DNA of 64,000 nt, taken from NCBI RefSeq assembly GCF_016862515.1, contig NZ_BONC01000045.1:1-64000 (forward strand). Reading direction: 5' to 3'. The stretch is from Asanoa iriomotensis (GTDB lineage: Bacteria > Actinomycetota > Actinomycetes > Mycobacteriales > Micromonosporaceae). The notes under the pieces are model-generated. The model searched no databases. It saw only the letters and a list, made by a program, of their open reading frames with translations, and had not been told where the DNA came from. The translations under genes and the position numbers were made by a program. Shown here piece by piece: positions 12,985 through 23,293 of the stretch. Position 1 is the first letter of the stretch, and the number at the start of each line of letters is the position of its first letter.

Positions 12985-15900
12985 CTACTCCTCCTCGCTG
13001 CCGAGCCGCTGGCTGATCACTTCGGTGACGCCGTTGCGCATGGTCACGCCGTAGAGGGCGTCGGCGACCTCCATCGTGCGCTTCTGGTGGGTGATGATGA
13101 TCAGCTGGCTCTTCTCCCGGAGCTGGGCGAACAGCGTGATCAGCCGGCCGAGGTTGACGTCGTCCAGCGCCGCCTCGACCTCGTCCATGATGTAGAACGG
13201 GCTGGGGCGGGCCCGGAAGATCGCGACCAGCATGGCGACCGCCGTCAGCGAGCGCTCGCCACCCGACAGCAGCGAGAGCCGCTTGATCTTCTTGCCCGGC
13301 GGGCGGGCCTCGACCTCGACGCCCGTGGTCAGCATGTCCTCGGGGTCGGTGAGCACCAGTCGACCCTCGCCGCCCGGGAAGAGCACGTTGAAGACGTTCC
13401 CGAACTCGCGCGCCGTGTCGTGGTAGGCGCTGGTGAACACCTCGAGGATCCGGTCGTCCACGTCCTTGACGACGGTGAGCAGGTCACGCCGGGTGTTCTT
13501 GAGGTCCTCGAGCTGGTCCGAGAGGAACTTGAAGCGCTCCTCCAGGGCCGCGAACTCCTCGAGCGCCAGCGGGTTGACCTTGCCGAGCAGGGACAGCTCG
13601 CGCTCGGCCTTCGCGGCCCGCTTCTCCTGGGTCGGCCGGTCGTAGGGCACGGGCTCGGGCTCCGGCTCACCGGCCGCGACGGCCGCGGCAAGAGCCACCT
13701 GCGTCGGGGGTACGGGCTGCTCCGGCCCGTATTCGGCGACCAGCGTCTCGACGTCGAGCGAGAAGTCCTCGGCGGCCTTGATCTCGAGCTGCTCGATCCG
13801 CATGCGCTGCTCGGCCCGGGCGACCTCGTCGCGGTGGACCTCGCTGGTCAGCCGCTCCAGGTCGGAAGCGAGCCGCTTGGCCGCCGCGCGTACCTCCTGG
13901 AACTCGGCCTCGCGGGCGGACCGTGCGCTGGCGACGGCGTCCCGGGTCTCCTCGGCCGCGGCCAGCGAGACCGCGACGCGGGCCAGCGCCTCGCGGGCGC
14001 CGATCTCCACGGCCCGGGCGATCCCGGCACCGCGGACCCGGGCGGCCCGGCGGGCGGCGGCGCGCTCGCGGGCGGCCCGCTCGGCGGCGGCCTGGCGGGC
14101 CAGGGACTCGGCCCGGCCGGCGATCGAGGCGACCCGCTCCTCGGCGGTACGCACCGCGAGCCGGACCTCCATCTCGTTCTGCCGTGCCTGCGGCACCATC
14201 GCGGCGAGCTGGTCGCGCTCCTCGGTCGACGGCTCCTCGTCGATCGGGGTGGTCTCGGCCAGCTCGAGCCGGGTCTCCAGCTCGGCCAGCGCGGTCAGGT
14301 CACGCTCGCGGGCCTCCTCGGCGCGGGCGCGGGAGGCACCCAGGCGCTCGGTCTCCGCGGCGGCGGACCGGGCGGCGGCACCGAGCTCGGCGAGCCGGCG
14401 GGCGGCGGCGTTGCGCTGCCCCTCGGCGGCCCGCTTCTCCCGCTCGGTGACCTGCACGGCCTCCTTGCGGCTGGCCACGGCCGCCCGTCCGGCGGCGAGC
14501 TGGGTGCGTAGCTGCTCGATCTGCTCCTCGGCGCGCGCCCGGTTCGAGGCGGCCTCGTCGACGGCCGCCTGCAGTTCGATGAAGCTCTGCGCCTTGGCCG
14601 AGCCACCCGCGGCGGCGTAGGCGCCGACCACGTCGCCGTCCGGCGTCACCGCGCGCAGCTGCGGGTTGGCGGCCACCGCACGGGTCGCCAGTTCCAGGCT
14701 CTCGGTGAGGATCACGTCGCGCAACGCCCAGTGCACCGCGGGCCGGATCCGCTCGTCGCAGCGCACCACGTCGGGTGCCCAGCGCGCGCCGTCCGGCAGC
14801 GCGGGCCGCAGCGCGTCCGGCGTGCCGATCATGCCGGGGCCCGCGGGGGTGCCGACCAGCAGCGCTGCCCGCCCGGCGTCCTGGATCTTGAGGTAGCGCA
14901 TCGCCTCGGCCGCCTCGTCGACGCCGGCGACCGCGACCGCGTCGGCCAGCGCGCCCAGCGCCGCGGCCAGGGCCGCCTCGTGCCCGGGCTCGACGGTCAG
15001 CATCCCGGCGAGGCTGCCCAGCAGGCCCGGCACCTGGTCGGCGCGGGCGAGCAGCGCGCCGGCGCCGTCCTTGCGGCGCAGGCCGAGCGAGAGCGCCTCC
15101 TCGCGGGCCTTCCAGGTCGCCGCGTCCTTCTCGGCGACCCGCTCGCGGTTGGTCAACTCGCGGACCTCTGCGGCCGACTCCTCGTGCGCGGCGACCGCCT
15201 CGTCGTGGCGGGCGTCGAGGTCGGCGTCGGCCAGGTCGGCCTCGGACGACTCGGCGGCGACGGCGTCGACCTCGGCCTGGGCGCGCTGCGCCCGGGTCTG
15301 TGCGTCGACGTGGGCGGCGGCGAGCCGCGAGATCTCCTCAGCGCCGCTGGTGCTGCGGGCGCGGGCGGCGTTGACCTGACCGGTCAGCTTGGCCAGGCCC
15401 TCGCGGCGGTCGGCGATCGCCTTGGCGGCCGCGCGCAGCGCCTGCTCGGCGGCGGCGAGCTGGCGTTCCAGGCCCTGCCTGGACTCGACGGCCTCGGCGA
15501 GGCGGGCCTGGTCGTCCTTGAGCGCGCCGCGGAGCTTGTCCTCCTGCGCGCGCACCCGCTCCGACTCGGCGGCCAGCTCGTCCGGGTCACGCCCGGGGCG
15601 TTCGTCGTCGGGCGTGGCGGACAGGTGCCGCAGCCGCTCGCTGGCGAGCTGCTCGGTGGATCGAAACCGCTCCTGAAGGGCGGAGAGCTTGTACCAGGCG
15701 TCCTGTGCGGCGGCCAGCAGCGGCGCGTCCTCGGCCAGCGCGGCCTCGAGCTGGGCCAGCCGGCGCTGCACCTGGTCGTGCTCGTCCTCGACGTACTCGC
15801 GGCGCTCGCGCAGGGCCGCCTCGTCGGCGATCTCCTTGTCGAGCGTGGTGCGCAGCGTGTGCAGGTCGTCGGCGAGCAGCCGGAGCCGGGCGTCGCGCAG

Positions 15901-16563
15901 GTCGGCCTGGATGCCGGCGGCCCGCCGGGCCACCTCGGCCTGCTTGCCCAGCGGCTTGAGCTGGCGGCGCAGCTCCGCGGTCAGGTCGGTGAGCCGGTTG
16001 AGGTTGGTCTGCATCGCGTCGAGCTTCCGCAGCGCCTTTTCCTTGCGCTTGCGGTGCTTGAGGACGCCGGCCGCCTCCTCGATGAACGCGCGGCGGTCCT
16101 CCGGCTTGGCGTGCAGCACGGCGTCGAGCTGGCCCTGGCCGACGATCACGTGCATCTCGCGGCCGATGCCGGAGTCGCTGAGCAGCTCCTGGATGTCGAG
16201 CAGCCGGCAGGAGTTGCCGTTGATCTCGTATTCGCTCTCACCGGAGCGGAACATCCGGCGGGTGATCGACACCTCGGTGTAGTCGATCGGCAGCGCGCCG
16301 TCGCCGTTGTCGATGGTGAGGGTGACCTCGGCGCGGCCCAGCGGCGCCCGGCCGGCGGTGCCGGCGAAGATCACGTCTTCCATCTTGCCGCCGCGCAGCG
16401 CCTTGGCGCCCTGCTCGCCCAGCACCCAGGAGATGGCGTCGACCACGTTGGACTTGCCAGAGCCGTTGGGCCCCACGACGCAGGTGATGCCCGGCTCCAG
16501 CCGCAACGTGGTCGCGGAGGCGAAGGACTTGAAGCCCTTCACGGTCAAGCTCTTGAGATGCAC
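12985..16563 (-). CDS. smc: Chromosome segregation protein SMC
   Basis: Condensin ATPase of 1192 aa. The N-terminal head has Walker A (GPNGSGKSN, residues 32-40). A long coiled coil follows, interrupted by the hinge at about residues 515-655, then a second coiled coil. The C-terminal head has the signature LSGGERSLTA and Walker B FYIMDEVEAALDD. Length and layout are those of bacterial SMC. The ScpA/ScpB partners are not in this window. In related genomes smc lies near mutM; here a surface-protein and polysaccharide locus separates them. Confidence 0.98.
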   Translation of the reverse strand: MHLKSLTVKGFKSFASATTLRLEPGITCVVGPNGSGKSNVVDAISWVLGEQGAKALRGGKMEDVIFAGTAGRAPLGRAEVTLTIDNGDGALPIDYTEVSITRRMFRSGESEYEINGNSCRLLDIQELLSDSGIGREMHVIVGQGQLDAVLHAKPEDRRAFIEEAAGVLKHRKRKEKALRKLDAMQTNLNRLTDLTAELRRQLKPLGKQAEVARRAAGIQADLRDARLRLLADDLHTLRTTLDKEIADEAALRERREYVEDEHDQVQRRLAQLEAALAEDAPLLAAAQDAWYKLSALQERFRSTEQLASERLRHLSATPDDERPGRDPDELAAESERVRAQEDKLRGALKDDQARLAEAVESRQGLERQLAAAEQALRAAAKAIADRREGLAKLTGQVNAARARSTSGAEEISRLAAAHVDAQTRAQRAQAEVDAVAAESSEADLADADLDARHDEAVAAHEESAAEVRELTNRERVAEKDAATWKAREEALSLGLRRKDGAGALLARADQVPGLLGSLAGMLTVEPGHEAALAAALGALADAVAVAGVDEAAEAMRYLKIQDAGRAALLVGTPAGPGMIGTPDALRPALPDGARWAPDVVRCDERIRPAVHWALRDVILTESLELATRAVAANPQLRAVTPDGDVVGAYAAAGGSAKAQSFIELQAAVDEAASNRARAEEQIEQLRTQLAAGRAAVASRKEAVQVTEREKRAAEGQRNAAARRLAELGAAARSAAAETERLGASRARAEEARERDLTALAELETRLELAETTPIDEEPSTEERDQLAAMVPQARQNEMEVRLAVRTAEERVASIAGRAESLARQAAAERAARERAAARRAARVRGAGIARAVEIGAREALARVAVSLAAAEETRDAVASARSAREAEFQEVRAAAKRLASDLERLTSEVHRDEVARAEQRMRIEQLEIKAAEDFSLDVETLVAEYGPEQPVPPTQVALAAAVAAGEPEPEPVPYDRPTQEKRAAKAERELSLLGKVNPLALEEFAALEERFKFLSDQLEDLKNTRRDLLTVVKDVDDRILEVFTSAYHDTAREFGNVFNVLFPGGEGRLVLTDPEDMLTTGVEVEARPPGKKIKRLSLLSGGERSLTAVAMLVAIFRARPSPFYIMDEVEAALDDVNLGRLITLFAQLREKSQLIIITHQKRTMEVADALYGVTMRNGVTEVISQRLGSEEE

Positions 16564-17276: not shown

Positions 17277-18068
17277 GTGCAGGACACCGAGCACTTGGGT
17301 GCGGCCAAGCATCGCAACCCGAGGCGTACGTTCGGCCCACTCGGCCTCGCGTTCGTGGTCTTGATCATTCTAGGTGGCCTCGGCGCCGGCGCGGCATTGT
17401 TGCCGTCAAGCCTGGTCGGCAGCTCCTCCAACGGTTCCGCCAAGGGCGCCATCGCCGGCCCGGGTGGCGGCGCTCTCGATGCCGGCCTCGAAGGCGGTGC
17501 GGACAGCGACGGCTACTCGGGAGAGACGCTGTCCACGCCGTCACCGACGCCGACCGAGATCGTGCCGACCAAGCCGCCGTCACCGAAGCCGACGGTCCGC
17601 AAGACCACGCCCGCGCCGCGGAAGACGACCTCGTCGCCCGCCACGAAGCGGTCGACCGCGACCGTCTCGACGAGCGGCGCCGGCGGCACCCAGCAGGCCA
17701 AGGTGGTCGCCGAGGTCAACCGGCAGCGCGCGATGAACGGCTGCGGCGCGGTGACCGTCAACGCGAAGCTCACCAAGGCCGCCCAGCTGCACAGCGTGGA
17801 CCAGGCAGAGCACAACAAGATGTCGCACGACGGCAGCGACGGCAGCACGCCGTGGGACCGGGCTGGTGACCAGGGCTACAACAACGCGATCGGCGAGAAC
17901 GTCGCGATGGGCTACCGCGACGCCGCTTCCGTGATGGAGGGCTGGATGAACAGCCCCGGGCACCGGGCCAACATCCTCAACTGCCAGGCGAAGGCGATCG
18001 GAGTCGGGCTCGCGAAAGCCTCCGACGGGAGTCCGTACTGGACGCAGCTGTTCGGATCGGTGAAGTAA
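17277..18068 (+). CDS. CAP/SCP-domain extracellular protein
   Basis: Surface or secreted protein of 263 aa. After a basic cytoplasmic start, one hydrophobic segment (residues 22-45) acts as signal anchor. A Thr/Pro/Ser/Lys-rich linker follows (about 80-140), presumably crossing the cell wall. The C-terminal CAP (CRISP/antigen 5/PR-1) domain occupies about 145-263, with AAQLHSVDQAEHNKMSHDGSDGS, GENVAMGYRDAASVMEGWMNSPGHRANIL and a C-terminal strand YWTQLFG. Two cysteines (CGAVTV, LNCQ) may form a disulfide. Start is GTG after AGGAGG. The bacterial function of the YkwD-like CAP group is poorly understood. Confidence 0.88.
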   Translation: MQDTEHLGAAKHRNPRRTFGPLGLAFVVLIILGGLGAGAALLPSSLVGSSSNGSAKGAIAGPGGGALDAGLEGGADSDGYSGETLSTPSPTPTEIVPTKPPSPKPTVRKTTPAPRKTTSSPATKRSTATVSTSGAGGTQQAKVVAEVNRQRAMNGCGAVTVNAKLTKAAQLHSVDQAEHNKMSHDGSDGSTPWDRAGDQGYNNAIGENVAMGYRDAASVMEGWMNSPGHRANILNCQAKAIGVGLAKASDGSPYWTQLFGSVK

Positions 18069-18165: not shown

Positions 18166-19596
18166 GTGCGCGTCGCACTGATCAACGAAGGCACCTACCC
18201 GTACGCGCCCGGAGGCGTCGGCACGTGGTGCCACCAAATCCTCAACGGACTCGACGGGCACGAGTTCCACGTCGTCGCCCTCACCGGCCACGCTGGACCG
18301 CGCGAGTCCGCCTACCCGGTGCCGAGCGCGGTCACCGCGGTCGACACCTACCCGGTCTGGGACCGGCCGGTCACCGTGCCGGGCCGGCTCACCAGGCACC
18401 GGCGCCGCCGAGGCGCGTCGGCCGCGGCCGTGCTGCTCTGCCGTGGCCTGCTCGGCGACGACCCGCACAGCGCCGGCATGTTCGCCGACGGGCTGCGCCG
18501 GCTCACCGAGCTGTCCGGTGACGGCAGTCACCCGCTGCACGGCGTCGAGTTGGCCGAGGTGCTGCTCGACGCGTGGCAGGCGTCGGCCGGACCCGCGGCC
18601 GGGCGGCCACCGCTCCCCCGGCTCTCACTGCGCGACGCCCGCGCCGCTGCGGTGCTGCTGGAGCACGCCGTGCGCCCGCTGGCGTACGCGACACCGCCGG
18701 TCGACCTTTGTCACCCGGCCGCCGCGGGCCTGCCCGTGCTGGTCGCGCTGGCCGCCAAATGGCGTGCCGGCGTGCCGTTCCTGCTCACCGAACACGGCGT
18801 CTACCTGCGAGAACGCTATCTGGAGCACGGGGCTGACCGGCCGATCGGCGTCAAGACCGTGCTGCTGCGCTTTTACCGCGCCCTGGCCCGCCTGGGCTAC
18901 GCCGAGGCCGCGCTGGTCGCCGCGGTCAGCCGGTTCAACCAGCGCTGGGAGCTGCGGCACGGCGCGCACCCGGCCAAGGTCGTGGTGGTGCCCAACGGCG
19001 TCGAGCCGCTGCGCTACCCGCCGCTGGCCACCGAGCCGACCGTGCCGACGGTCACCTGGGTCGGCCGGATCGACCCGCTCAAGGACCTGCACACGCTGAT
19101 CCGGGCGATGCGCACGATCCGCGACGCGGAACCGCTGGCCCGGCTGCGGCTGGCCGGTCCGGTGCCGGAGACGGGCCGGGACTACGCGGCGAGCTGCCTC
19201 GCGCTGATCGAGCGGCTCGGCCTGCGCGCGGCCGTCGACCTGTCCGGGCCCGTGTCCAGCAGCCGGCAGGCGTACGCGCAGGGGCACGTGGTCGCGTTGT
19301 CGAGCATCTCCGAAGGCATGCCGTACACGATCATCGAGGCGATGATGTGCGGCCGGCCGACGGTCAGCACCGACGTCGGCGGCGTCCCCGAGGTGGTCGG
19401 CGGTGCGGGCGTGATCGTGCCGCCGGGCGACCCGGTCGCGCTCGGCCACGCCTGCCTCGAACTGCTCGGCGACCGCACCCGGCGGCGGACGCTGGGCGCG
19501 CACGGCCGCTCACGGGCGCTGGCGCATTTCACGGTCGACCGCATGCTCGCGGCTTATCGGGCGCTTTATGCGGACGTACGGGCGGTGGCGGCATGA
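18166..19596 (+). CDS. PelF-type GT4 glycosyltransferase
   Basis: Cytoplasmic family-4 glycosyltransferase, 476 aa. The N-terminus VRVALINEGTYPYAPGGVGTWCHQI is the hallmark of the PelF/DUF3492 group. The C-terminal Rossmann domain has VVVPNGVEPLRY, VTWVGRIDPLKDL and the nucleotide-sugar E-x7-E motif E383...E391 (EGMPYTIIEAM). PelF in Pseudomonas polymerises UDP-GlcNAc/GalNAc into the Pel exopolysaccharide. I chose the GTG at 18166 because GGAG sits 7 bases upstream and the PelF start motif begins there; longer in-frame starts add only Arg-rich sequence. First gene of an ATGA-coupled three-gene operon. Confidence 0.85.
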   Translation: MRVALINEGTYPYAPGGVGTWCHQILNGLDGHEFHVVALTGHAGPRESAYPVPSAVTAVDTYPVWDRPVTVPGRLTRHRRRRGASAAAVLLCRGLLGDDPHSAGMFADGLRRLTELSGDGSHPLHGVELAEVLLDAWQASAGPAAGRPPLPRLSLRDARAAAVLLEHAVRPLAYATPPVDLCHPAAAGLPVLVALAAKWRAGVPFLLTEHGVYLRERYLEHGADRPIGVKTVLLRFYRALARLGYAEAALVAAVSRFNQRWELRHGAHPAKVVVVPNGVEPLRYPPLATEPTVPTVTWVGRIDPLKDLHTLIRAMRTIRDAEPLARLRLAGPVPETGRDYAASCLALIERLGLRAAVDLSGPVSSSRQAYAQGHVVALSSISEGMPYTIIEAMMCGRPTVSTDVGGVPEVVGGAGVIVPPGDPVALGHACLELLGDRTRRRTLGAHGRSRALAHFTVDRMLAAYRALYADVRAVAA

Positions 19597-21005
19597 GAGC
19601 ACCCGCCGCTGGACCGCAGTCGATCGCGGATCTGGCCGAGCGGTTCGCCGGCAGCGTCGTGGTCGTCGACGTGGACGAGCTGGTCGCGGCCATCGAGGCG
19701 GCGGGCATCAGCGACCGCCAGGCACAGGTGAGGTACGGCGTGCCGACCGTGTTCGCGCTCGGCGAGGCGGTGCTGGCCCAGCTCTGGGCCCAGCGTGGCC
19801 GCCCCGGCGCCAGAACGCCCCGCGACCGGCGCGTGCCGTTCGCCCGCGCCGCGCTGGCCCGGGCGGCGCTGTTCCTGACCCCGGCCCTGGCCACCCTGGC
19901 CGCCGGCGGCCCGCTCGCCCGGGTCGGCTGGCCCCTGCTCGCGGCGACGGTCGTGGTCGGCTGGTCCGGCGGGCAGGCGCTGGCCTGCGCCGGCTACGCC
20001 CGGGCCGCGCACGGCAACACCGGCGCGGCCCTGCGCCGGGTGGCGGCCGGACTGCTGGTCGCGTCGGCGGCCGGTGCGGCGGCGGTGACGTTCGGCCCAC
20101 CGGCGCTGGTCGGCGAGCGGATTCCCGCGTACGCCGTCTGCGGTGTCGAGCTCCTGGCCTTCGCCGGCGTGGCCGCCGCACTGGTCGCGGGCCGGGTCGG
20201 CGCGGTGCTGCGCTGGTCCGTGCCGGTCTGGCTGGTCAGCCTCGCGCTGCTGACCGGTCTCCTCCCGGACCGGGCGGGCTGGCTGCTCGGCGCCGCGGTC
20301 GGGCTCGCCGCCGCCCGCGCCTTCGCACCCGCCCTGCGCCGCGACCCGCCTGAAGCCCGGGTGGGTGCCCGCGCACCGTTCGGCGCGGTCGTCGCGTACG
20401 TGCTGATCGGTGCCGGCCAGGCGGGCGCGTTCCTGCTCGTCTGGCGGCTCGTGCCGGGCGACGGCGCCGCGCCCCCGCCGGCCACGGTCCCGCTGCTACT
20501 GGCGGTGCCGCTGATCGAGCTGTTCGTGGCCTGGCACGCCGCCGGCGCCGCGGCCGGGCTGGACCTCTACGACGACGTCGCCGCGTACCGCCGCCACCTG
20601 CGCGCGCTGGGCGCCGCCACGCTCGCGGGGCTCGTGCCGCCGCTGGCGGTCGGCGCCGCGCTGCTGGTCGCCGCGTTCCGGCTGCCGTACGAGCTGTCCC
20701 GCCACCCCGACGCCCGGGCGCTGGTGCTGTCCCTCGCGGCCGGCGCGCTGCTGGCCGGTGCCTGGGCCGCGACCCTGCTGCTGGCCACCCGGGGCCGGCT
20801 GCTGCTGGCCGCGCTGCTGGCCCTCGCGCCGGTCGCCTTCGCGGTGGTACCGGTCGCCGGTTGGCTGGTGGCCGTGCCGGGCGGCAGCGTCCACTCGTTG
20901 ATCCAGGTGATGTTGCCCGCGACGGTGGCCGGCCTGGCCGCGACGTCGGTGCTCGGCCTCGCGGCCGCCGCCCACACCGTCTTTCAATCCGGGAGCTACC
21001 GATGA
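19593..21005 (+). CDS. Polytopic membrane protein, putative PelG-like exporter/flippase
   Basis: Integral membrane protein of 470 aa with about 12 hydrophobic helices between residues 85 and 465. A cytoplasmic N-terminal domain of about 75 residues precedes them (SVVVVDVDELVAAIEAAGISD, RYGVPTVFALGEAVLAQL). Between helices, ELFVAWH and LDLYDDVAAYRRHLRALG resemble the loop of polysaccharide flippases. Its position right after a PelF-type transferase (start overlaps its stop as ATGA) and its helix count suggest the PelG role of moving the polymer across the membrane. No sequence motif proves this; assignment is by context. Confidence 0.55.
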   Translation: MRAPAAGPQSIADLAERFAGSVVVVDVDELVAAIEAAGISDRQAQVRYGVPTVFALGEAVLAQLWAQRGRPGARTPRDRRVPFARAALARAALFLTPALATLAAGGPLARVGWPLLAATVVVGWSGGQALACAGYARAAHGNTGAALRRVAAGLLVASAAGAAAVTFGPPALVGERIPAYAVCGVELLAFAGVAAALVAGRVGAVLRWSVPVWLVSLALLTGLLPDRAGWLLGAAVGLAAARAFAPALRRDPPEARVGARAPFGAVVAYVLIGAGQAGAFLLVWRLVPGDGAAPPPATVPLLLAVPLIELFVAWHAAGAAAGLDLYDDVAAYRRHLRALGAATLAGLVPPLAVGAALLVAAFRLPYELSRHPDARALVLSLAAGALLAGAWAATLLLATRGRLLLAALLALAPVAFAVVPVAGWLVAVPGGSVHSLIQVMLPATVAGLAATSVLGLAAAAHTVFQSGSYR

Positions 21006-21697
21006 ACGAGCTGCCGCGCCGGGTGCCCGGCGCCGCCACCGCCGGACCGGCGCCCACCACGCTGCTGCCGCTGTACGTGCATCCGCTCGAGGACCCGGAC
21101 GCCTGGGACCCGGACGCGTTGGCCGGCGCCACGGTGGTCGTCAACGTCCAGGACGGACCCGGGCGCGCGCTCGACCCGACCTACGCCGAGGTGACGGCGC
21201 GGCTCGCGGCGGAGGGGGTGCCCATGCTCGGCTACGTCGACGTCGACTACTCCGCCCGGCCGATCGCGGACATCCTCGACGACGTCGACGGCTGGACCGC
21301 GTACCCGATGTCCGGGATCTTCCTGGACCGCTGCCCGACGGGCGCCTACGGCATGGGCCCGGTGGCGTTGGCGATCCGCGTCGCCCGGCGGGCCGGCCTG
21401 TTCGCGGCGGTGCTCAACCCCGGGACGCCGCCGGAGCCGGTCTACCGGGACCTCGGCGTGCCGATCTGCGTGTACGAGGGCTCGTGGGACGACTACCAGG
21501 ACTGGGCGGGCGAGGGCGCGCTGCCCGGCGACGGCCACCTGATCCACAGCGTGCCGCCCTGGCAGCTCGAACACTCCCGCCGCGTGATGGCCTGGCGCGG
21601 CGCGGGCTTCGGGCTGGTCTCGGACCGCTGGATGACGAGCCCCTGGCAGGGACTGCCCTCGGACTCACCCCGCCCACTGGCCGTCGTGCCGGGTTAG
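21002..21697 (+). CDS. Spherulation-specific family 4 (GH114/TIM-barrel-like) protein
   Basis: A 231-residue protein matching the spherulin-4 family: [16 protein letters not shown] at the start, [36 protein letters not shown] around residue 105-112, and [12 protein letters not shown]. This family belongs to the TIM-barrel group that includes GH114 and the PelA hydrolase domain (established family knowledge, recalled). The Asp in FLDRCP and the Glu in YEGSW are likely catalytic candidates. No signal peptide is visible from this start, which is odd for a polysaccharide hydrolase. The ATG overlaps the membrane gene's stop (ATGA); the 3' end overlaps mutM by 33 bases. Confidence 0.8.
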
Positions 21698-22540
21698 CAG
21701 CCGTGGCCGGGGCTGGCACTTCGGGCACGAGAACGACGAGCGGTTCATGAACGACTCACGCCGGATCGGGCTGCCGCACCGGTTGCAGGGCTGGCCTTCG
21801 CGGCCGTACGCGTTCAGGCCGCGCTCGAAGTAGCCGCTCTGGCCGTTGACGTCGACGTAGAGCGCGTCGAAGCTCGTGCCGCCCTCGCGGATCGCCTCGC
21901 CGAGCACGTCGCGCACGTGGCCCAGCAGGCGCAGCGCGGCCGGCCTGGTCAGCCGGTCCGTCGGGCGGGCGCCGTGCAGCTGTGCCCGCCAGAGCGCCTC
22001 GTCGGCGTAGATGTTGCCGATCCCGGAGATCAGCGTCTGGTCGAGCAGCGCCCGCTTGACCTCGGTGCGCCGGCGGCGCAGGCCCGCGACGAAGCCCTCG
22101 TCGGAGAACTCCGGGTCGATCGGGTCGCGGGCGATGTGCGCGATCTCGGCGGGCAGCTCCGCGCCGCCCGTGGAGACCGACAGGCCGCCGAACGTGCGCT
22201 GGTCGACGAAGCGCAGCTCCGGGTCGCCGTCCGCGAAGCGGAAACGGATCCGCAGGTGGATCTCGTCGGGCATGGTCGCCGGCTGGAGCAGCATCTGGCC
22301 GGACATGCCGAGGTGGCCGACGATCGCGTCGCCGCTGTCGAGCGGCAGCCAGAGGTATTTGCCGCGGCGGCGGACGTCGAGCACCCGCCGGCCGGCGAGC
22401 TGGCCCGCGAAGTCGAGCGGGCCGGGCAGGTGGCGGCGGACCGCCCGGGGGTGGTGCACCTCGACCTCGGCGATCCGCCGGTCGGCGACGTGCTTGACCA
22501 GGCCGGTGCGGACGGTCTCGACCTCGGGTAGCTCGGGCAC
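21665..22540 (-). CDS. mutM: Formamidopyrimidine-DNA glycosylase (MutM/Fpg)
   Basis: Base-excision repair enzyme removing 8-oxoguanine, 291 aa. The N-terminus [10 protein letters not shown] supplies catalytic P2 and E3. The conserved lysine is in RGKYLWLPL, the H2TH region is [14 protein letters not shown], and the C-terminal zinc finger is C-x2-C-x16-C-x2-C (CNRCG...CPKCQ). Start is GTG. It is convergent with, and overlaps by 33 bases, the spherulin-4-like gene, and follows rnc as in mycobacteria. Confidence 0.97.
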
Positions 22541-22549
22541 CGGGTAAAC

Positions 22550-23293
22550 CTATTCGGCCGCGCTCGGTGCGGCCACCTTCTCGGCCGCCTGCTCGGACAG
22601 CTCCTGCCAGGCGGTCTCGGCGGCCCGCTGCTCGGCCTCCTTCTTGCTGCGGCCGTCGGCGCCGCCGTAGCGCTTGCCGGCCACCACGACCCAGGCGGTG
22701 AACGTCTTGGCGTGGTCGGGGCCGGCCTCGTCGATCCGGTATTCCGGGACGCCGAGGCTCAGCGTGGCGGTCAGCTCCTGGAGGCTGGTCTTCCAGTCCA
22801 GCGCGGCGCCGCGGCCGGCGGACTCCGCCATCAGCGGGTCGAACAGCCGGTGGATCACCACGGCGGCGGTGTCCAGGCCGTACTGGAGGTAGATCGCGCC
22901 GAGCAGGGCCTCGAGCGTGTCGGCCAGGATGCTGTTCTTGTCGCGGCCGCCGGTGGTCTCCTCGCCCTTGCCGAGCAGGAGGTAGGGCCCGAGCCCGTCG
23001 GGACCGAGGCGGCGGGCCACGTCGGCCAGCGCCCGCATGTTGACCACGCTGGCGCGCAGCTTGGCCAACTGCCCCTCGGGCAGGTCCGGGTGGTTGTTGA
23101 ACAGCGCGGTCGTGATCACCACACCGAGCACCGAGTCGCCGAGGAACTCGAGCCGCTCGTTGGTCGGCAGGCCGCCGTTCTCGTACGCGTACGACCGGTG
23201 GGTCAGCGCCCGTTCCAACAGCTCGACGTCGAACCCGATGCCGAACGCGGCCTCCAGATGCGCGACCGGAGGCCGTCTGCGCTTATCAGTCAT
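22550..23293 (-). CDS. rnc: Ribonuclease III
   Basis: Double-strand-specific endoribonuclease, 247 aa, for rRNA and mRNA processing. It carries the family signature [13 protein letters not shown] with catalytic Glu/Asp residues, the second acidic site [12 protein letters not shown], and a C-terminal dsRNA-binding domain (about residues 165-235, [30 protein letters not shown]). Its ATG overlaps the plsX stop (ATGA), so expression is coupled. Confidence 0.97.

Follow-up and report, generated by a model that had tools for sequence, protein, structure and literature searches.

We analysed a 64,000-nucleotide stretch of DNA from the soil actinomycete Asanoa iriomotensis (Micromonosporaceae), hereafter the window, which lies on contig C45 of the 8.57 Mb genome assembly. 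Between smc and mutM, three open reading frames on the forward strand (18166-21697) encode a PelF-family glycosyltransferase (P0001), a membrane protein (P0002) and a Spherulin-4-type TIM-barrel protein (P0003), and are joined by two ATGA overlaps (Table 1). This is the arrangement reported by an initial annotation made from the DNA alone, which had further proposed that the three genes form a reduced Pel-type unit for making, exporting and trimming an exopolysaccharide. The Spherulin-4 gene and mutM converge, their 3' ends overlapping by 33 bases at 21665-21697. A reading of the locus as a defence system was dropped, as PADLOC gave zero matches.

Table 1 Features of the three-gene locus, its flanking markers and the second PelF locus of the same genome.
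Feature	Position	Strand	Basis or remarks
PelF-family GT4 glycosyltransferase, 476 amino acids, GTG start, 8/8 checked residues intact	18166..19596	+	NCBIfam, Pfam, alignment
Membrane protein, 470 amino acids, about 12 predicted helices and a conserved soluble N-terminal segment	19593..21005	+	Hydropathy, family alignment
Spherulin-4/GH135-like TIM-barrel protein, 231 amino acids, leaderless, putative catalytic pair D109 and E159	21002..21697	+	Pfam, PDB match
ATGA overlap, PelF stop/membrane protein start	19593..19596	+	
ATGA overlap, membrane protein stop/Spherulin-4 start	21002..21005	+	
CAP-domain (PF00188) gene with hydrophobic N-terminal stretch, upstream of PelF	17277..18068	+	Membership in the locus uncertain
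smc, left synteny marker	12985..16563	-	Outside the function
mutM/fpg, right synteny marker	21665..22540	-	
rnc, right synteny marker	22550..23293	-	
Second Pel/galactosaminogalactan (GAG)-like locus, L003 (contig C39, 40000-59000)	7345-17677		Agd3-type deacetylase, PelF, membrane protein, nucleotidyltransferase, epimerase, GH114/GH191-type protein, UDP-sugar genes

The transferase scores 182.5 bits against the NCBIfam PelF model NF038011 (cut-off 100) and 147 bits against Pfam DUF3492, and carries both NEGTYPYAPGGVGTWC and E383-x7-E391, so its assignment as PelF-type holds. It is 57-61% identical to the PelFs of Micromonosporaceae operons that also encode an Agd3-type deacetylase, and PelF and membrane-protein profiles built with members of these Agd3 operons match the window proteins. 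The third protein matches Pfam Spherulin4 (PF12138; 81 bits) and the solved fungal Sph3 (5d6t; E 1e-9); of the spherulin-4/GH114-like barrel first described, the Spherulin-4/GH135 part was thus borne out and the GH114 part was not. Searches of Pfam and NCBIfam gave no match to a PelA-type deacetylase/hydrolase domain in the three proteins, nor do they hold an Agd3-type domain, and the locus is indeed without a deacetylase as first annotated.

Hydropathy averaged over 48 relatives gives the membrane protein 12 hydrophobic segments, in line with the earlier estimate of about 12 helices, while P0002 taken alone shows 13 at a different threshold, one of them inside the N-terminal segment. This soluble segment is invariant at E29, A32, E35, G38, G49 and F54 across the 48 sequences. 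The protein had no significant match in Pfam, NCBIfam or PDB sequences. The PelG model PF16933, with above-threshold matches in 7 of 396 genomes from this phylum, matched nothing in the A. iriomotensis genome and none of the 32 membrane-protein family members scanned, and a profile-profile comparison (hhalign) with four PelGs of the phylum returned a probability of 0.03%, the PelG side being shallow (Neff 2.1). Kinship with PelG therefore found no support in these sequence-level comparisons. The absent match lowers the claim that this is a Pel system, and the protein may still work in a PelG-like manner, which is compatible with the data. That the locus is a true Pel system, its membrane protein a strongly diverged PelG and its PelD/PelE replaced by other proteins, strikes us as improbable. 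The PelF equivalog match would fit it, as would a membrane protein near PelG length (470 amino acids against a 452-position model) next to PelF, and a figure legend in PMC7112194 mentions Gram-positive pel operons for which pelF and pelG alone were found; however, the PelG comparisons came back empty, if with a shallow PelG side, and the complete relatives seen carry Agd3-type partners.

We then considered conservation within Asanoa, using the window genome and five others, including A. hainanensis, A. ishikariensis and A. siamensis. In this neighbourhood survey the three genes recur as a unit, in the same order and free of internal stops in all six genomes. The ratio of non-synonymous to synonymous substitution rates (dN/dS) across the six was 0.147 for PelF, 0.334 for the membrane protein, 0.226 for Spherulin-4 and 0.283 for the CAP-domain gene, as compared to 0.180 for mutM (five genomes) and 0.072 for rnc (three genomes). 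The three-gene unit is under purifying selection in Asanoa, and its constant order, intact frames and low ratios argue that the locus is not a product of chance. The full order is smc, CAP, PelF, membrane protein, Spherulin-4, then mutM and rnc. Four of the five Asanoa relatives show mutM: one has it directly next to the locus, like the window, and three (L016, L018 and L019) have it 1.5-2.5 kb away; that of A. siamensis (L034) lies farther out, yet within 10 kb of the locus. These data also bear on the least probable of the explanations we weighed, namely that the locus is the decaying remnant of a former operon in which polymer synthesis has ceased. Altered or partial copies occupying this position in other genera, the relaxed constraint on the membrane protein (0.33) and the absence of Agd3 and GH114 from the locus would all suit such a remnant, but the frames and the eight PelF residues followed below are intact in six of six Asanoa genomes, and the PelF ratio (0.15) is near that of mutM (0.18).

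None of the six Asanoa genomes has an Agd3 gene at the locus, and no GH114 gene was found at or beside it. Agd3-like proteins occur in three of the six, always outside the locus, and matches to PF03537 (GH114) in four, the one in G002 being weak (24.8 bits, in an open frame of 711 amino acids). Two genomes, G004 and that of A. siamensis, G005, gave neither an Agd3-like nor a PF03537 match, other deacetylase families such as CE4 lying outside the search; as both keep the three genes, the unit can exist without those partners. PelD had no match in any of the six, in a search in which no positive control rang.

The source genome itself holds such partners elsewhere. It encodes two PelFs above the NCBIfam cut-off, one in the window and one on contig C39 (Table 1), where PelF and the membrane protein are 43% and 18% identical to their window homologues and stand in the same order. 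The C39 PelF keeps all eight checked residues and falls outside the clade of the window PelF, as sister to the PelF of G601 (L176); no Spherulin-4 match was found at this locus. Its Agd3-type protein (755 amino acids) carries PF25115 and PF25116 and matches PDB 6nwz (E 3e-14). Its GH114/GH191-type protein is lipoprotein-like and is the only PF03537 match of the genome; its best PDB match is 9ep5 (E 1.7e-77), and both this and TM_1410 come ahead of the GH114 enzyme Ega3 (5e-6). TM_1410 is called TmGH191 in an excerpt of PMC12054363. The presence of a deacetylase and a GH114/GH191-type protein beside this second PelF and membrane-protein pair speaks against the initial interpretation on this point. 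The notion of a self-contained unit is accordingly kept in part: it is led by PelF, lacks a PelG match and in two of six Asanoa genomes stands without a detected Agd3-like or GH114 gene, whereas in the source genome Agd3 and GH114/GH191 are encoded at another place.

To place the locus among its relatives, genome contigs were searched by Spherulin-4 alignment and the best 80 of 181 relatives were analysed, an operon survey that is anchored on Spherulin-4 and silent on operons lacking it. Membrane-protein positions in this survey are first-domain coordinates in long open frames, partly inside PelF, and served for presence calls and, where plausible, for alignment. With nine loci of incomplete flanks left out, 62 of 71 carry genes for Agd3, PelF, the membrane protein, Spherulin-4 and GH114; a further five lack GH114 only, three (all Asanoa) have PelF, the membrane protein and Spherulin-4 alone, and one has Spherulin-4 alone. 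The relatives are thus GAG-like operons with Agd3, Spherulin-4 and GH114, of the kind described in the excerpt of PMC7229062, and the locus is not a reduced form of the classical Pel operon as had been suggested.

Across the family, 123 of 300 genomes had a Spherulin-4 match. We took 80 regions from other genera, of which one on a 3,245-base contig (L145) was left unclassified, and the 79 classifiable regions together with eight more (five Asanoa, three others) made 87, some genomes giving two. Sixty-nine of these regions, from 17 genera and including 25 from genus g279, lie at smc/mutM. Among them, 32 have PelF, the membrane protein and Spherulin-4, three more have the same set with a single marker in the region, and five have PelF and Spherulin-4 with the membrane protein undetected; the remaining 29, in which PelF went undetected, comprise 16 with Spherulin-4 alone and 13 with Spherulin-4 and a GH114 match (below 130 bits in 12 of the 13). 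The 18 regions elsewhere consist of 16 with all five genes and two with Spherulin-4 alone. Agd3 was found in 0 of the 69 sampled smc-mutM loci, and the CAP gene was detected in 43. The PelFs of smc-mutM loci form one clade (24 rows, support 100/100), as do their Spherulins (46 rows, SH-aLRT 99, quick tree), in trees that both contain flagged long branches and from which 28 loci were left out by thinning. A single clade in a shared place points to one old locus rather than repeated insertions. Within the Agd3-PelF-membrane protein-Spherulin-GH114 operon family, the window locus represents an old branch, found in Micromonosporaceae and set between smc and mutM. The ancestral locus probably also had GH114. 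A strong GH114 match beside Spherulin-4, with a lipoprotein-like leader, was seen at L195 (G450), and weaker ones at L167, L179, L190-L192, L199 and L230-L235.

We next examined the Spherulin-4 protein. In the alignment to 5d6t, D109 and E159 of P0003 fall opposite an Asp and a Glu that lie 56 residues apart. We take the Sph3 pair to be Asp166/Glu222, which fits this spacing, and a printed 196 for the Asp is presumably a misprint. The excerpt of PMC12054363 gives the pair as Asp196/Glu222. D109 and E159 are a putative catalytic pair. Each is kept in 88 of 89 aligned Spherulins (a set with four genomes in twice: L015 = L034, L017 = L032, L018 = L033 and L022 = L037), the exceptions being L035, a remnant, and L020, a degenerate locus. 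We dropped the idea that the Spherulin of the window is catalytically dead, both the D and the E being present. Other genomes also occur twice, among them L035 = L194 and L036 = L237, which are doubled in the residue counts for PelF and Spherulin that follow.

No leader or N-terminal helix was found in P0003. The same is seen more widely: 88 Spherulin frames (80 named loci and eight others) start level with the first barrel strand or only slightly ahead of it, and in many cases share bases with the preceding gene. A crude signal test flagged 7 of 80 Spherulins as compared to 44 of 69 GH114 and 34 of 68 Agd3 proteins of the same loci, and we read the seven as false; the flagged windows there cover strand one of the barrel, which follows a stretch rich in Arg. 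A narrower leader test flagged 0 of 80 Spherulins, 0 of 69 GH114 and 2 of 68 Agd3 proteins at the named loci, and 3 of 85 Spherulins at the Micromonosporaceae loci; ten smc-mutM loci with orphan Spherulins, inspected in full, had no leader. Lacking a leader, the Spherulin-4 proteins of these operons are probably cytosolic, which makes it unlikely that the trimming initially proposed takes place outside the cell. The Spherulins of L174, L175 and L176 do carry leaders, and those of L174 and L175 also have a fungal-like D-E pair; such secreted-looking proteins appear to be a separate class within the same family.

The fate of PelF across the smc-mutM loci was followed through eight residues, E8, G16, G17, H210, R301, K306, E383 and E391, which we take as markers of the GT4 active site. 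All eight are intact in 6 of 6 Asanoa PelFs and in 28 of 28 rows from Agd3 operons (27 genomes, one in twice). Among 41 sampled smc-mutM PelFs, the full set is kept by the six of Asanoa alone; the other 35 all differ at one position or more. PelF is altered in 25 of 25 loci of genus g279: 24 differ at seven of the eight positions, and in one the match does not extend over the N-terminal part, E391 being kept in all 25. The residues are mostly lost in g278 and g7 as well, with fewer changes in g281 and g273 (one glycine only in L222). The altered g279 PelF has a dN/dS of 0.32, with 0.53 for the membrane protein and 0.19 for both Spherulin-4 and mutM, and is a candidate genus-wide pseudo-glycosyltransferase, open and constrained (L180-L184, L200-L219). 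In eight of the g279 loci (L182, L200-L204, L206 and L207) the PelF and membrane-protein matches lie some 1.4-2.5 kb apart. At L020 (G011) and L189 (G460), of genus g7, the glycine motif near the N terminus of PelF and the two glutamates of its E-x7-E are missing, and in Spherulin-4 an A replaces the catalytic E, so that both active sites are lost together.

Loci were chosen by Spherulin-4, which makes its own losses invisible. Across 71 smc-mutM Spherulin rows, which include the window and one doubled genome, the two catalytic positions read D/E in 47, D/D in 20, H/E in two (the doubled genome) and D/A in two; elsewhere they read D/E in 30 of 30 rows. Among the 29 smc-mutM loci without a PelF match, 28 have D109 with E or D at 159, and the dN/dS of orphan Spherulins in three genera (0.19, 0.16 and 0.21) is close to that of mutM there (0.17-0.18). 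These orphans, together with g279 PelFs that have mostly lost their residues and yet remain constrained, are unexplained by a polymer-synthase model and keep alive a rather doubtful alternative, in which the locus is centred on Spherulin-4: the leaderless barrel would be what is conserved, serving its own purpose in the cytosol by cutting or binding a GalNAc-type glycan or a lipid-linked sugar, and PelF and the membrane protein would be accessories altered or lost in the other sampled genera, Asanoa being a holdover. Against this, PelF is under the strongest constraint among the three genes in Asanoa (0.15), with its eight residues all present; loci that lost Spherulin first would go unseen in a set picked by Spherulin-4 matches; and in some genomes with an orphan a full operon exists at another place (L161 and L192 in G541, L229 and L197 in G523). 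A little less doubtful, and put forward tentatively, is the possibility that a cytosolic Spherulin-4 enzyme, as the core of the smc-mutM locus, may function independently of an active synthase; PelF would have become a conserved non-catalytic protein or vanished across Micromonosporaceae, the constraint on Spherulin-4 would have remained enzyme-like, and Asanoa would keep the original, catalytically competent three-gene form.

Published systems offer several points of comparison. PMC7229062 describes bacterial Agd3 operons that also encode a glycosyltransferase and a membrane protein, usually GH114 and, in some Actinobacteria, Spherulin-4. Like these Agd3 (CE18) operons, the window locus pairs a cytosolic glycosyltransferase with a multi-spanning membrane protein, and some of them share its Spherulin-4; unlike them, it lacks Agd3 and GH114, sits between smc and mutM and belongs to its own clade. 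The fungal galactosaminogalactan cluster comprises uge3, gtb3, agd3, sph3 and ega3 (PMC4817252), and in the window too an Sph3 homologue lies beside a polymerising glycosyltransferase. The Aspergillus fumigatus synthase Gtb3 is a predicted integral membrane protein, whereas transferase and membrane protein are two genes here, and fungal Sph3, by description, is membrane-bound and cuts outside the cell (PMC11356417, PMC12054363), whereas P0003 is leaderless. Gram-positive Pel operons such as pelDEADAFG (PMC7112168) likewise place PelF next to a multi-helix membrane protein, but the window locus has neither detected PelG homology nor a PelA-type domain. The kind of operon had been published (excerpt of PMC7229062) before this unit was annotated as a possibly undescribed reduced version; what may still be new is its stand-alone smc-mutM form, of which, as of the leaderless Spherulins and the altered PelF series, we found no description in the open-licence papers searched, where the excerpt of PMC11005364 gave mentions in its reference list only.

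Taken together, we favour, with a probability of about one half, a reading of the locus as a compact GAG/Pel-like polymer synthase with a cytosolic trimming hydrolase. PelF would polymerise a UDP-N-acetylhexosamine in the cytosol, most likely UDP-N-acetylgalactosamine (UDP-GalNAc) into an alpha-1,4 chain. The protein of about 12 helices would fill the place of PelG, docking PelF through its soluble N-terminal segment and exporting the chain. The leaderless Spherulin-4, ATGA-coupled to the membrane protein, would cut the still-acetylated chain on the cytosolic side and so set chain length or clear stalled polymer. As the locus encodes no deacetylase, the product may keep its acetyl groups, or it may lose them to an Agd3-type enzyme encoded elsewhere in genomes that have one. 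In A. fumigatus, Sph3 is specific for the acetylated polymer, is required for GAG synthesis and has been proposed to cleave the chain emerging from the synthase (excerpts of PMC12054363 and PMC11356417). In keeping with this specificity, a Spherulin-4 in the cytosol would encounter the chain ahead of its export and of any deacetylase.

Several points weigh against this compact synthase. A simple trimming role does not account for the persistence of orphan Spherulins and residue-less PelFs. Fungal Sph3 has an E directly after the putative nucleophile Asp, a position at which 88 of 89 Spherulins carry R or Q. The GalNAc substrate is drawn by analogy from relatives only, and position and helix count are the basis on which export is ascribed to the membrane protein. 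In Neurospora crassa, a GH135 deletion strain still adhered, whereas the synthase deletion did not (PMC11356417), which suggests that Sph3-type enzymes may not be needed everywhere.

If the synthase reading holds, the locus would represent a minimal and naturally isolated Pel/GAG-type synthase of one glycosyltransferase, one membrane protein and one hydrolase, making testable what minimum suffices to assemble and transport such a polymer. That these Spherulin-4 proteins lack a leader poses a specific question to the view of Sph3-type enzymes as extracellular in action. The smc-mutM series, running from intact and partly altered loci to the candidate pseudo-transferase and the orphan hydrolase, would amount to a natural experiment in the dismantling or re-use of such a system across Micromonosporaceae.

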